Origin: a bacterium
Lineage (GTDB): Bacteria; Hydrothermota; Tepidihabitantia; Tepidihabitantales; Tepidihabitantaceae
NCBI GenBank assembly: GCA_035505375.1
Contig: DATJQV010000090.1
Span: 1-33,601, forward strand
DNA length: 33,601 bases
Direction of reading: 5' to 3'
Every line of letters begins with the position of its first letter. Positions within the stretch are counted from its first letter, which is position 1. Below are positions 24,109 to 28,869 of the stretch, piece after piece. The notes beneath the pieces were generated by a model. It saw only the letters and a program-made list of their open reading frames with translations, did no database searches and had not been told where the DNA came from. Both the position numbers and the translations under genes were made by a program.

Positions 24109-24245
24109 TCCGAGCTTCAGTCGTCATTCGAGTTTCGTGTTTCGAGCTTCTTTGACCTGTGTCCATCTGCGTGCATCCGTGGTCGTTCCTCTTCGTGGCT
24201 CTTCTCCGCCACTCTGAACTCTGGATTCTGGACTCTGGATTCTCC
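24109..24245 (+). repeat. Cluster of three dispersed repeat types before butyrate kinase
   Basis: In the gene-free stretch 23954-24296 there are, in order: a CATTCGAGTTTCGTGTTTCG block (inverted relative of 17396-17431); a TGTGTCCATCTGCGTGCATC block (like 27445-27474) plus CTCTTCGTGGCTCTTC; and a CTCTGAACTCTGGATTCTGG block that repeats GGATTCT/GGACTCT units. All are degenerate and none has an ORF of its own. Confidence 0.65.
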
Positions 24246-24261
24246 CCGTCCGCCTCGTGGT

Positions 24262-24289
24262 TTGACTTGCCCACGAGCAGCGGTAGACT
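24262..24289 (+). promoter_or_regulatory. Candidate leaderless promoter of butyrate kinase
   Basis: -35 TTGACT (24262-24267), 16-nt spacer, -10 TAGACT (24284-24289). The A of the ATG (24297) is 8 bases after the last base of the -10, about where transcription would start. No Shine-Dalgarno sequence precedes the ATG, so a leaderless mRNA is suggested. Confidence 0.5.
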
Positions 24290-24296
24290 AAGCAAC

Positions 24297-25385
24297 ATGT
24301 GGATTCTAGTCATAAATCCCGGCGGCGGGTCCACGAAGGTGGCCGTTTTCAACGGCGCCAAGCCCCTGTTCTCCGAGACGGTTGAGCACGCGCCCAACCA
24401 GCTAGTGCGGTTCGGCCACGTTCTCGACCAGTACGAACTGCGCAAGTCCGCGGTTCTCTCGGTGCTGGACAGGCACGCATTCGACCGCGCCAAGCTGCAG
24501 ACGATAGCGACCCGCGGCGGTCCGCTCCGGCCGTTGCCGGGCGGCGTCTATCGGATAACGCCCCACGTCGCCGCCGACATCCGCCACGGCCAGTACCAGA
24601 CACTGCACCCGGCGCTGCTCGGCCCGCTCATCGGGCTTGAGCTGTCGCAGGAGCTGGGCATCCCCGCCTATTTTGTTGACCCCGAGTCGACCGACGAGTT
24701 CCGTGACATCGCCCGGATTTCCGGCTTCAGCGGCATCCCTCGCATAGCTCTCTCCCACGCCCTGAGCTGTCGCGCGGTGGCCGAGGCCGCGGCCAGGAAG
24801 CTCAAGAAACCCTACAAGAAGTGCCGGCTGGTGGTCGCCCACCTTGGCACGGGCATTACCGTTGCCGTTCACGTGGGAGGCAGACAAGTCGACGCGACCA
24901 ATGCCAATGACGACGGCCCGTTCTCGCCGCAGCGTTCCGGCTCGCTGCCGCTGTCCGGCCTCGTCCACGCCTGCTACTCCGGGAACTACTCCGAGAAGGC
25001 GATTCTGAACCTGCTGACCCAGCGGGGCGGATTGATCTCCTACCTCGGAACGGACGACATCCGCAAAGTCGAGACAGCGATAACCGAGAACAACAAGTCG
25101 GCCGAGCTGGTATACCGGGCACTGGTCTATCAGGTGGCAAAGGAGATCGGCGCATACGTCGTCGCCTGCGAAGGCGGGCCGGACGCGGTCGTCCTGACCG
25201 GCGGGCTGACCCTGTCCGAGAAGTTCGTAGCCAACCTGAAGAAGTGGCTCGCGCCCCTCGATCTGAAGATAATCGTATTCCCCGGCGAAGAGGAAATGAC
25301 GGCCATGGCCAATCGCCTCCTCGCGGTGTTGACCGGTAAGGAAAAGGAACGCAACTATGACAAGGAAACTGCTCTCCGGGGATGA
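24297..25385 (+). CDS. buk: Butyrate kinase (branched-chain/aryl acyl kinase)
   Basis: 362 residues, the normal size for the family, from ATG 24297; the upstream extension in frame is repeat sequence. Acetate/butyrate kinase signatures are present: LVINPGGGSTKVAVF at the N-terminus (usual form NPGSTSTK), then AYFVDPESTDEF, VVAHLGTGITVAVHVGGRQV and DAVVLTGGL, ending near VFPGEEEMTAMA. The enzyme transfers phosphate between acyl-phosphate and ADP, giving ATP in fermentation. It overlaps iorA by 29 nt, so acyl-CoA from 2-oxoacid oxidation is the likely source. The phosphotransbutyrylase usually paired with it is absent from the window. Confidence 0.9.
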   Translation: MWILVINPGGGSTKVAVFNGAKPLFSETVEHAPNQLVRFGHVLDQYELRKSAVLSVLDRHAFDRAKLQTIATRGGPLRPLPGGVYRITPHVAADIRHGQYQTLHPALLGPLIGLELSQELGIPAYFVDPESTDEFRDIARISGFSGIPRIALSHALSCRAVAEAAARKLKKPYKKCRLVVAHLGTGITVAVHVGGRQVDATNANDDGPFSPQRSGSLPLSGLVHACYSGNYSEKAILNLLTQRGGLISYLGTDDIRKVETAITENNKSAELVYRALVYQVAKEIGAYVVACEGGPDAVVLTGGLTLSEKFVANLKKWLAPLDLKIIVFPGEEEMTAMANRLLAVLTGKEKERNYDKETALRG

Positions 25386-27351
25386 AGCAATCGCCCGGGG
25401 AGCCTGGGAGGCAGGCTGCCACGTGGCCGCTGCCTACCCAGGCACACCTTCCACCGAGATCCTCGAATCCCTTTCAACCTACAAAGACGTCTACTGCGAA
25501 TGGTCTACCAATGAAAAGGTAGCGCTGGAAGTCGCGCTCGGCGCCTCGATTGCGGGCGCGCGGTCGCTCGCCGCGATGAAGCACGTCGGCCTGAACGTCG
25601 CGGCCGATCCGCTCTTCTCGTCCGCCTACATCGGTGCGCGGGGCGGGTTTGTCATAGTGACCGCCGACGACCCCGGGCTCCACTCCTCGCAGAACGAACA
25701 GGACAACCGCTACTACGGCCTGATGGCCAAGATTCCCGTCCTCTGCCCGTCCGACTCGCAGGAGGCAAAGGACTTCACCCGTCGTGCGTTCGACATTTCC
25801 GAGCAGTTCGATATACCGGTCCTGTTGCGCATGACCACCCGCAGCGCCCATTCGTCGAGCGTCGTCGAGCTGGGCGAGCGCCTGCCCCGTCCGGTCAAAG
25901 GCTACGAAAAACAGATTACGAGAAACATGGTCCTGCCCGCATTCGCCAAGACGCGTCACGTCGACCTCGAACAGCGGCTGGACCGGGTCCGGGCATGGAA
26001 CGAGGAATGCGACCTCAACCGGATGGAGCAGGGCTCGCGGCAGATGGGAATCGTCTGTGACGGGGTCTCCTACCAGTACGCCCGCGAGGTCTTCCCTGAT
26101 GCGTCTTTCCTCAAACTCGGCATGGTCTGGCCATTCCCTCGCGAACTCGTCCGCCGCTTCGCCGCGACCGTAGACGAGCTCGTCGTCATCGAAGAGACGG
26201 ACCCATTCATCGAGACCCAAATCCGCGCGCTCAACCCGTCATCCGTCACCGGTCTCCCGTCAAAGATAACCGGCAAAGACAAGCTACCCCGTACCGACGA
26301 ACTCAGCCCCCGCGTCCTCCGCTCCTCCCTCGCGAAGGAAAGTGCGAACGCCGACGTGCAAACGCCGAATTCCGGAGCCGGACGTTCGGAGTTCGTCGCT
26401 CGGCGTCCGACGTTGCCCTCCCCGTCCTCCATTCCGCAGCATTCGTCATTCGACGCTCGGCGTTCGACATTGCCTGTGCAGGGTCTTCCCTCCCGCCCTC
26501 CCGCCCTCTGCCCGGGCTGCCCGCACACCGGCATCTTCTGGGGGCTGCAGAAGCAGAAACTAATCATTGGCGGCGACATCGGCTGCTACACCCTCGGCGG
26601 GCTGCCGCCGCACAGCGCCATGGACACCTGCATCGACATGGGCGCGTCCATCACCGTCGCCCACGGCTTCGACAAGGCGCTCGGCACCGCTGACCCGCGC
26701 CGGCGCGTCGCGTTCATCGGCGACTCCACCTTCTTCCACTCCGGCATCACCGGCCTTGTCAACACGGTCTACAACCAGTCGAACGTCATCACCATTATCA
26801 GCGACAACCGTACCACCGGCATGACCGGGCACCAGAACCACCCCGGAACCGGCGAAACCCTGATGGGCTCGTTCGGCCCCGTCATCAAACCCGAGGACGT
26901 AGCGAGAGCCTGCGGGGTCAAGAACGTGGTCGTCGTCGACCCTTACAAGGTCAAAGAAACCCGCAAAGTCGTACGCGAGTTGCTGGCCAAGAACGAACCC
27001 GCGGTCATTATCAACCGGAGAGCCTGCGCCCTGCACATCCGGCTCCACAACCCGCCGTTCGTAGTCGACACGGAAAAGTGCACCGGCTGCAAGACGTGCA
27101 TCAGCCTCGGCTGCCCGGCGCTGTCCTTCAGCGAGGCGCGGGACATGACCGAAACGTCCGACGTTTCGGATCGTGTCCCAAGCCGACCCAGCCGTGGCAA
27201 GGCGTGCATTGAGGAAACCATCTGCGTCGGCTGCGGCATGTGCGCCGACGTCTGCCCGCAGGAAGCCATCAGCCAAAGTGCGAATGCCGAAGTGCAAACG
27301 CCAAAGTCCGAAGTTCGGCGTTCGGCGTTCGGAGATCGGAGTTCATCGTGA
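25357..27351 (+). CDS. iorA: Indolepyruvate:ferredoxin oxidoreductase, alpha subunit, with three in-frame repeat insertions
   Basis: 664 residues; ATG 25357 after AAGGAA, overlapping buk. The N-terminal pyrimidine/TPP domain (1-190, AAAYPGTPSTEILESL) is followed by the transketolase C-like domain. Then come the TPP-binding half with CPGCPHTGIFWGL, GGDIGCYTLGGLPPHSAMDT and FIGDSTFFHSGI, and a C-terminal 2[4Fe-4S] ferredoxin domain (CTGCKTCISLGCPA… and CVGCGMCADVCPQEAI). It oxidises 2-oxoacids (typically aryl pyruvates) to acyl-CoA, CO2 and reduced ferredoxin. Oddities: a ~49-residue insert at 328-376 before CPGCPH; a ~17-residue insert between the two Fe-S motifs; and a ~24-residue tail after the second motif. 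Insert 1 and the tail share the same repeat. The frame is intact throughout. Confidence 0.93.
   Translation: MTRKLLSGDEAIARGAWEAGCHVAAAYPGTPSTEILESLSTYKDVYCEWSTNEKVALEVALGASIAGARSLAAMKHVGLNVAADPLFSSAYIGARGGFVIVTADDPGLHSSQNEQDNRYYGLMAKIPVLCPSDSQEAKDFTRRAFDISEQFDIPVLLRMTTRSAHSSSVVELGERLPRPVKGYEKQITRNMVLPAFAKTRHVDLEQRLDRVRAWNEECDLNRMEQGSRQMGIVCDGVSYQYAREVFPDASFLKLGMVWPFPRELVRRFAATVDELVVIEETDPFIETQIRALNPSSVTGLPSKITGKDKLPRTDELSPRVLRSSLAKESANADVQTPNSGAGRSEFVARRPTLPSPSSIPQHSSFDARRSTLPVQGLPSRPPALCPGCPHTGIFWGLQKQKLIIGGDIGCYTLGGLPPHSAMDTCIDMGASITVAHGFDKALGTADPRRRVAFIGDSTFFHSGITGLVNTVYNQSNVITIISDNRTTGMTGHQNHPGTGETLMGSFGPVIKPEDVARACGVKNVVVVDPYKVKETRKVVRELLAKNEPAVIINRRACALHIRLHNPPFVVDTEKCTGCKTCISLGCPALSFSEARDMTETSDVSDRVPSRPSRGKACIEETICVGCGMCADVCPQEAISQSANAEVQTPKSEVRRSAFGDRSSS
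26338..26483 (+). repeat. In-frame repeat insertion 1 in iorA
   Basis: Begins AAAGTGCGAACGCCGACGTG and matches 27275-27313 at about 34 of 39 bases. It continues with CATTCGTCATTCGACG and TCGGCGTTCGACATTG blocks of the kind seen in intergenic repeats. It encodes a Ser/Arg/Pro-rich linker (SANADVQTPNS…) between the two TPP-enzyme halves. Confidence 0.75.
27149..27169 (+). repeat. Short palindrome between the iorA Fe-S motifs
   Basis: A perfect 10-bp inverted repeat CCGAAACGTC / GACGTTTCGG around a single C. It encodes TETSDVSD in the linker between the two ferredoxin cluster motifs, where homologues normally have only a short turn. Confidence 0.65.
27275..27345 (+). repeat. In-frame repeat insertion 3 (C-terminal tail of iorA)
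   Basis: Begins AAAGTGCGAATGCCGAAGTG and continues with AAGTTCGGCGTTCGGCGTTC and GGAGATCGGAGTTC. It replaces the normal C-terminus after the last Fe-S motif with SANAEVQTPKSEVRRSAF and a few more residues. It ends 3 nt before the vestigial iorB start. Confidence 0.75.
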
Positions 27352-27386
27352 ATCTCTTGGTCTGCGGCGTCGGCAGCCAGCGCTCC
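27348..27386 (+). pseudogene. Vestigial first copy of the iorB start
   Basis: GTG 27348 overlaps the iorA stop (GTGA), the arrangement expected for a translationally coupled iorA-iorB pair. The frame reads MNLLVCGVGSQR, almost the same as the real iorB start MNILVCGVGGQG at 27527. It then runs straight into dispersed repeats (CCGTTTCGTGTC…). About 26 of 36 bases match the second copy, with many of the differences synonymous. Confidence 0.65.
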
Positions 27387-27510
27387 GTTTCGTGTCTTTC
27401 GTGCCTTCGTGGCTCAAATTCCTCGTTCTGCTCCGAACCCCATCAGTGTCCATCTGCGTTCATCTGTGGTTTCGCTCTGTCCGTTTCGTGTCTTTCGTGC
27501 TTTCGTGGCT
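27385..27510 (+). repeat. Paired dispersed repeats between iorA and iorB
   Basis: Two copies of a 30-bp unit (CCGTTTCGTGTCTTTC… to …TTCGTGGCT, at 27385-27414 and 27481-27510) differ at one base. They flank a GTGTCCATCTGCGTTCATCT block. The second copy is identical over 28 bases to 6493-6520 (opposite strand). The middle block resembles 24160-24178. Confidence 0.8.
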
Positions 27511-27526
27511 TAGATCGGAGTCCCTC

Positions 27527-28195
27527 ATGAACATTCTCGTCTGCGGTGTCGGCGGTCAGGGCGTGCTGCTCTTCTCCAACATCGTCTCGGAACTGGCATT
27601 GACCGCCGGGCTCGACGTCAAGAAGTCGGAAGTCCACGGCATGGCTCAGCGCGGCGGCTCGGTCACCAGCCACATCCGCTACGCGCCAAAGGTAGCGTCG
27701 CCGCTTATCGAAGAAGGAACCGCGGACATCATCGTGGCCTTCGAGATGATGGAAGCGCTCCGCTACATCCACTTCCTGCGCCCGGACGGAAAACTCATCT
27801 ACGACTCGCACCGCATCGACCCACTCCCGGTCTCAACCGGCGTGGTCGAACGCCCGACCGATGAGAAACTCAACCAACTCCTGACCGAGAGCATGGAAAA
27901 AACGGGGACTGTCCACGGAAAACAGGGACTGTCCCGCGCTGAGTCCGTCGCAAGCGATCCGGGGGACTGTCCCTCGTTTTCCGCACGGTCAGTCTGCGTG
28001 CCGGCGTTCGCCGCCGCCCTCAAACTCGGCAACGCCCGTGTGCAGAACGTAGTGATGCTCGGGGCCATATCCACCTTCCTTGAGTTCCCGGAAGAGGCCT
28101 ACCACCAGGCCATCACGAACCGCGTGAAGCCCAAGGTGGTCGACCTCAACCTCAAGGCCTTTGCCGAAGGCCGCGCGCTCTGCGGCCGCGCGTAG
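27527..28195 (+). CDS. iorB: Indolepyruvate:ferredoxin oxidoreductase, beta subunit, with internal repeat insertion
   Basis: 222 residues from ATG 27527, with CGGAG 8 nt upstream; the open frame upstream is repeat sequence. This is the gamma-domain fold of 2-oxoacid oxidoreductases: MNILVCGVGGQGVLLFSNIV, then EVHGMAQRGGSVTSHIRY, and a C-terminal NVVMLGAISTFLEFPEEAYH. It partners IorA in electron transfer from TPP to ferredoxin. Residues ~124-153 (KTGTVHGKQGLSRAESVASD and following) have no counterpart in the family and coincide with a GGGACTGTCCC inverted-repeat element; removing them restores the usual spacing before VPAFAAALKLGN. It is separated from iorA by 175 nt of repeats, unusual for a normally overlapping pair. 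Confidence 0.92.
   Translation: MNILVCGVGGQGVLLFSNIVSELALTAGLDVKKSEVHGMAQRGGSVTSHIRYAPKVASPLIEEGTADIIVAFEMMEALRYIHFLRPDGKLIYDSHRIDPLPVSTGVVERPTDEKLNQLLTESMEKTGTVHGKQGLSRAESVASDPGDCPSFSARSVCVPAFAAALKLGNARVQNVVMLGAISTFLEFPEEAYHQAITNRVKPKVVDLNLKAFAEGRALCGRA
27916..27983 (+). repeat. Inverted-repeat element inside iorB
   Basis: Left arm CGGAAAAC-A-GGGACTGTCCC (27916-27935) and right arm GGGACTGTCCC-TC-GTTTTCCG (27963-27983) are complementary except at the centre base and one extra base. They enclose 27 nt. A third GGGGACTGTCC lies at 27904-27914. The look is that of a REP/BIME- or MITE-like unit; its length keeps iorB in frame. Confidence 0.75.
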
Positions 28196-28256: not shown

Positions 28257-28544
28257 ACTCATCGCCCGTTTCAAAGCTCCCTCAAAAGCTCGCCGGAAAG
28301 CTCGTCTCAGAGTTCGCCGGAAAGTATCCTAGAATGCATACTCGAAAGCGCACTGCATAGCTTCTTCCATTGCTCATCTCAAAGCTCGCCTCATCGCTTC
28401 GTGCATTGCTCATTTCAGAGTTCAGCGCATCGCTTCTTTCATCGCTCGCGGCAAAGCTCAGTCGAAAGCTCGCGTCAAAGCTCGTCTGAGAACTCCGATC
28501 AAAGCTCATCTCAAGGCTCGTTTCATGGCTTAGTCGAAAGCTCC
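28257..28544. repeat. 24-unit, 12-bp tandem array
   Basis: 288 bases fall into exactly 24 units of 12 with no indel. The consensus is about nnn-CAAAGCTCG, with recurrent variants CATCGCTTC, CATTGCTCA and CAGAGTTCG. The two central variable bases change mostly together (AA, TT, TC). The minus strand stays open and would read S-(F/N/D)-x-x tetrapeptides (SFEM, SNAR, SDEA). However, the only start is a TTG without a ribosome site, so coding is doubtful. It lies just after the iorAB operon. Confidence 0.9.
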
Positions 28545-28869
28545 TCAAAGGGCATGCCCCCGGGCGACCCCTATATGCGGACTTTGCGCGACGCAACAGG
28601 GCTTAACGGACTGAGATTAATTGAGTTATGAGTAGTTTCGGAGAATCACTAGGACATCAGTTCTTTTGGGCCTTGCGCGACCCCGAAATCAGCCCGCCCG
28701 CGCGTCGGGAAGCTCATCGGAGGGCTCATGGCCGCGCCCGGGGTTCCGGCCAAACCGCGTTCCGGCCGTTTGCTCCGCTTATCCCCTCCCTTCCCGCTCG
28801 CCTTCCCGGCACACTCGAATCCTCGGGTCCTTGCCCTCTTACCCCCTCTCTCCTCACTCTTTCCTCCGC
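28545..28869. other. Gene-free stretch after the 12-bp array
   Basis: I see no convincing gene here. There is an AT-rich patch at 28612-28632 (GAGATTAATTGAGTTATGAG) and a C/T-rich run at 28773-28868, both without ribosome site plus ORF combinations that look coding. Confidence 0.5.

Follow-up and report, generated by a model that had tools for sequence, protein, structure and literature searches.

Rickettsia palindromic elements are dispersed palindromic repeats, some of which lie in frame inside genes. Other short repeats live at gene junctions: the MIRUs of mycobacteria insert at start codons and carry an ORF of their own that is coupled at -4 nt, for which a hand-over of ribosomes has been proposed (PMC12548453). 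To couple translation, overlapping stop/start pairs are believed to require almost no spacing, so that an insertion at such a site should uncouple enzyme subunits. In experiments on native gene pairs, gaps of about 20-40 nt all but abolish reinitiation, and coupling needs no more of the upstream gene than its final 15 nt (PMC10666635). Synthetic nonsense ORFs placed upstream of a gene raise the translation of that gene (PMC13255528).

Here we describe the iorA-iorB junction of an uncultured WOR-3 bacterium with a 3.6-Mb genome (G000), using a 33,601-nt stretch of its DNA (the window). The junction resembles a MIRU in having a short repeat at the start codon of an operon gene and a small ORF that overlaps the upstream stop with its start and the downstream start with its stop. 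In other respects the two differ: the repeats here are palindromic, MITE-like arms, the host belongs to a different phylum, the first 12 codons of the mini-ORF copy the start of the gene that follows it, and the duplication spans 51 nt (13 nt in a second case described below). Termination-reinitiation coupling at a -4-nt overlap (ATGA), as found between genes for heteromeric subunits (PMC10666635), has its counterpart in the ancestral iorA-iorB junction and at both ends of the mini-ORF, but here the subunit genes are kept apart by a nonsense mini-ORF. The synthetic upstream ORFs are likewise short and meaningless, with an internal ribosome-binding site beside the stop that feeds ribosomes to the target (PMC13255528), whereas the iorAB mini-ORF is natural and built of dispersed repeats. 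A ribosome bridge at iorAB would be a variant of a known arrangement, extending the mycobacterial MIRU idea to other repeats and to an uncultured phylum. If this is true, a mini-ORF made of a duplicated start and repeats shows how coupled pairs survive insertions. Annotation is affected as well, since at junctions of this kind the start that is met first in place can be a decoy.

A duplicated start at the iorA-iorB junction

iorA, which encodes the alpha subunit of indolepyruvate:ferredoxin oxidoreductase (25357-27351, plus strand; TIGR03336, 688 bits, above the cut-off), has a repeat-derived C-terminal tail and stops at TGA 27349-27351. This 3'-end extension (27275-27347, plus strand), roughly SANAEVQTPKSEVRRSAFGDRSSS, has a 77% copy at 26339-26413. 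iorB, encoding the beta subunit (27527-28195, plus strand), matches the POR domain (PF01558, 8e-41) and the IOR_beta family models. The initial annotation had proposed that a GTG at 27348 overlaps the iorA stop and that the real iorB start lies further on, and this is what we find: GTG 27348 overlaps the stop as GTGA and encodes VNLLVCGVGSQR, while the functional start is ATG 27527, encoding MNILVCGVGGQG. An iorB fusion start in the open upstream frame, from 27173 onwards, was considered and rejected; the relatives within the family begin with MN(I/L/V), and ATG 27527 was therefore retained.

Between the two 36-nt starts there are exactly 10 differences, the approximate figure first given. The duplication itself is real but larger than had been described. 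It reaches 15 nt upstream of the 36-nt starts, with AGATCGGAGT in both copies, and thus covers 51 nt, of which 39 are identical between the upstream copy (27333-27383, plus strand) and the downstream copy (27512-27562, plus strand). Each copy holds a GGAG site six bases ahead of its start codon, and the copies are spaced by 128 nt, not 126, of dispersed repeats. These include two right-hand arms of a palindromic MITE-like element, at 27384-27419 and at 27480-27515 (27480-27511 up to the downstream copy), both on the plus strand and 92% identical to each other. A second dispersed repeat unit, GTGTCCATCTGCGTTCATCTGTGG (27439-27479, plus strand), is matched in part at many places in this genome.

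From GTG 27348 a mini-ORF of 60 codons runs through these repeats to TGA 27528-27530 (27348-27530, plus strand). It overlaps the iorA stop by four nucleotides at its 5' end (GTGA, 27348-27351) and the iorB start by four nucleotides at its 3' end (ATGA, 27527-27530), giving the order iorA-GTGA-miniORF-ATGA-iorB. With 179 nt (2 mod 3) from one start to the other, GTG 27348 and ATG 27527 are in different frames. The folded RNA of the junction has no more structure than shuffled versions of it (z = 0.95). MIRU insertion duplicates the overlap tetranucleotide DTGA. GTGA and ATGA stand on the two sides of the iorAB insert, but within a 51-nt imperfect duplication.

The next-best 51-mer match in the window reaches only 28/51, against 39/51 for the duplicated start. 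Across the 434 NTGA-ending genes scanned (about 2.0 Mb of genome sequence), the iorB start duplication scores 27 and the runner-up gene start 13, which is also the maximum of the null among 3588 comparisons in the same scan. It is by far the strongest such case in the 2.0 Mb scanned and is not due to chance. The copies have fared differently since. Measured over 36 nt against the consensus of the genus, the downstream copy has two changes, both synonymous, whereas the upstream copy has eight, among them replacements of Gly by Ser and of Gly by Arg in a motif conserved across the genus, and thus no longer encodes IorB. With its own downstream copy the upstream copy shares 26/36 positions, no more than with the iorB starts of sister species (27-29/36). 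The duplication is therefore old, in line with the initial view that the event was not recent.

The same annotation had considered a paralogue as the donor of the short copy, and a paralogous or foreign iorB might account for the 10 differences in 36 nt and for an upstream copy roughly equidistant from all sisters. The paralogue did not materialise, however: the genome holds no full-length second iorB (other matches have 25-47% identity) and no other DNA match to the duplicated segment. The copied segment also includes the local upstream AGATCGGAGT, and we regard an origin outside the gene's own start as very unlikely.

Ancestral overlap and the history of the split

In all ten genomes examined from other genera of the family, iorA and iorB are joined by a direct 4-nt overlap (ATGA/GTGA) with no repeats. 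In these genomes iorA ends right after its second ferredoxin motif, at the equivalent of ...CPQEAIS, and the repeat-derived extension is absent. The three sister species with a readable junction (G001, G003 and G004) likewise keep the four-base overlap and a single start, and differ from the other genera by a short repeat-like extension of iorA; G005, whose contig starts just before iorB and leaves the end of iorA outside the sequence, is not part of this count. The comparison supports a direct ATGA/GTGA overlap without repeats as the ancestral state, as had been predicted, save for the repeat-derived iorA tail in the sisters.

One further sister species, G002, is split like the window. Its iorA stop overlaps ATGAACAT, from which a mini-ORF of 48 codons (L155:593-739) runs to a TGA that overlaps the GTG of iorB (GTGA); the start-to-start distance is 143 nt, again 2 mod 3. 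Before iorB, the two junctions have in common the last repeat arm and a TAGAWCGGAGT spacer. Of the upstream start, only the 8 nt of ATGAACAT are recognisable in G002. This remnant is unlikely to be a chance match, since in the genome of the window only 0.45% of all ATGA occurrences are followed by ACAT. The initial annotation had argued that repeats split a coupled pair while a second copy of the start was kept, and this stands. What changes is the part played by that second start, which is more than a leftover: it opens an ORF ending on the real start, a feature that the initial annotation had not noticed, and the same chain exists in G002. Coupling of the pair is probably maintained by this very start.

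The split may have been gained once or twice. In a tree of the RNA polymerase subunits (rpoBC), G002 groups with G003 at 94%, and an AU test rejects the other two pairings (p = 0.023 and 0.001). G003 has no split although it is nested with G002, which requires either one gain followed by a loss in G003, or two gains. Two independent insertions, in the lineage of the window and in G002, would agree with this tree, with the small size of the start remnant in G002 and with the differences between the two inserts in their other units. A single shared event is favoured by the presence in both of the same arm, in the same orientation, next to the same spacer, and by the age of the duplication, which fits a single shared origin; moreover, the iorAB tree itself fails to resolve the branching of G000, G002 and G003. 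Two insertions thus come fairly close to an even chance without reaching it, and they would be compatible either with a function of the mini-ORF in coupling or with a neutral insertion.

Proposed translation across the split and comparable junctions

Structure and comparison show the following arrangement, for which the order of the insertion and duplication events is our inference. In an ancestor of the genus, iorA and iorB were joined by the 4-nt stop/start overlap. The junction took up dispersed repeats along with a duplicated stretch of about 51 nt carrying the iorB ribosome-binding site, start and first 12 codons. The downstream copy remained the true start of iorB, while the upstream copy kept the overlap with the iorA stop and now opens the 60-codon mini-ORF through the repeats. 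About 175 nt now separate the genes, and as reinitiation falls to near zero at about 20-40 nt, direct coupling between iorA and iorB should have been lost. Ribosomes finishing iorA may instead restart at GTG 27348, make a nonsense peptide and restart again at ATG 27527, so that translation of the subunits would stay coupled despite the distance. We lean, by a modest degree, towards such a MIRU-like arrangement, in which the mini-ORF would act only as a ribosome bridge.

This reading is favoured by the same two-ended chain in G002 and by a second doubled start in the coupling frame. The latter lies in an ABC-2 permease gene pair on contig C69 of the same genome (L333; about 59646-59762, minus strand). 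There TGTCGTGAGGACC occurs twice with 13/13 nt identical, once at the upstream overlap and once, 119 nt away, where the second gene truly starts. The two copies flank a CAGAATTC-type palindrome, and the linker forms a 40-codon ORF that ends on the second GTGA. A homologous (paralogous) permease pair on contig C12 has a direct overlap. Further repeat-made bridges are present in the genome.

The insertion may instead simply have been tolerated, with iorB started independently from its own GGAG site directly ahead of ATG 27527, and with an open mini-ORF that came about only because the repeats contain few stops and one frame in three fits. In the orientation of the junction the repeats are indeed poor in stop codons (P(open) of 0.40-0.54 per insert), and either mini-ORF alone is therefore unsurprising. 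An open and correctly phased linker in both the window and G002 would arise by chance with a probability of about 0.024 if the two are independent. That the two-ended overlap recurs in G002 around an insert of other make-up and length, and that the second doubled start is in the coupling frame too, argue against a neutral insertion, which we consider possible but rather unlikely.

The preference for the coupling frame across the genome is weak, which counts against a ribosome bridge and in favour of a tolerated insertion. Repeat-filled linkers after NTGA stops were in the coupling frame in 6/8 cases of a first set and in 2/5 cases in a fresh 0.75 Mb. Over all repeats, 18/34 were open versus 24/67 (p = 0.13). 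For CAGAATTC-type palindromes the figures were 7/8 versus 2/11 (p = 0.005), but four of these eight were seeds of the model and the test is partly circular; without the seeds they become 3/4 versus 2/11, numbers too small to support a conclusion. The enrichment of bridging mini-ORFs genome-wide is suggestive and not significant, and selection for them throughout the genome was set aside as a reading. Two further observations weigh against a bridge: repeats in this genome usually come without long flanking duplications, and G003 is without the split though it groups with G002.

The CAGAATTC-type palindromes, of about 100 nt, often end in TCCGG or TCCGGAG (contigs C81, C69, C41 and C86), and several copies sit exactly between an NTGA-ending gene and the next start. 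Copies with such an end before the next start may supply a ribosome-binding site. A bolder and doubtful extension is that the genus evolved, independently of mycobacteria, a MIRU-like repeat life in coupled operons, in which palindromes would invade NTGA overlaps, in some cases with a doubling of the start codon, and would persist only where they leave an open mini-ORF in the reinitiation frame, some of them supplying their own GGAG (TCCGGAG) ahead of the following start.

Dispersed repeats within genes and across relatives

Elsewhere in the genome, the arm found at the junction is the right half of a MITE-like palindrome of about 115 nt. The complete element, with terminal inverted repeats, is not at iorAB, where, in a difference from Rickettsia palindromic elements and bacterial MITEs, only single right-hand arms are left. 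The likeness to those elements lies in the palindromes in frame within genes: iorB holds one at about 27916-27982 that matches a palindrome in the iorA gene of G003 at 97% identity, and the same element is thus tolerated in different subunits. Dispersed repeats are also in frame within iorA of the window, at 26339-26490 and 27131-27191. The in-frame palindromes in the two genes indicate that the genus tolerates repeats inside coding sequence as well as at gene junctions.

The arm is multicopy, with 12 copies in G000 (at most two mismatches) and 8-28 in the five sister species, and is absent from most other relatives. In G015, from another genus of the same family, we counted 149 copies of the TTTCGTGTCTTTCGTGCTTTCGTGG arm. 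The genus of the window has 8-28, and the difference would reflect a burst or transfer that happened recently.

Long flanking direct repeats show almost no excess over random intervals in a comparison of the flanks of 321 repeat intervals (1.2 Mb), on which target-site duplication was rejected as a general rule for these repeats. With ordinary dispersed repeats lacking long flanking duplications, a separate local duplication at iorAB is a possible origin of the doubled start. Read by eye, a few flanks resemble duplications of about 6 nt around complete palindromes.

Other repeats lie close to iorAB in the window. Directly downstream of iorB, 28259-28563 has a 12-nt period (TCAAAGCTCGYC) in about ten imperfect units. 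Upstream, at 24159-24300, the longest ORF of butyrate kinase opens with GTG 24159, which itself lies in a dispersed repeat; the true start of the gene is probably further downstream, since the family models begin at residue 47-49.
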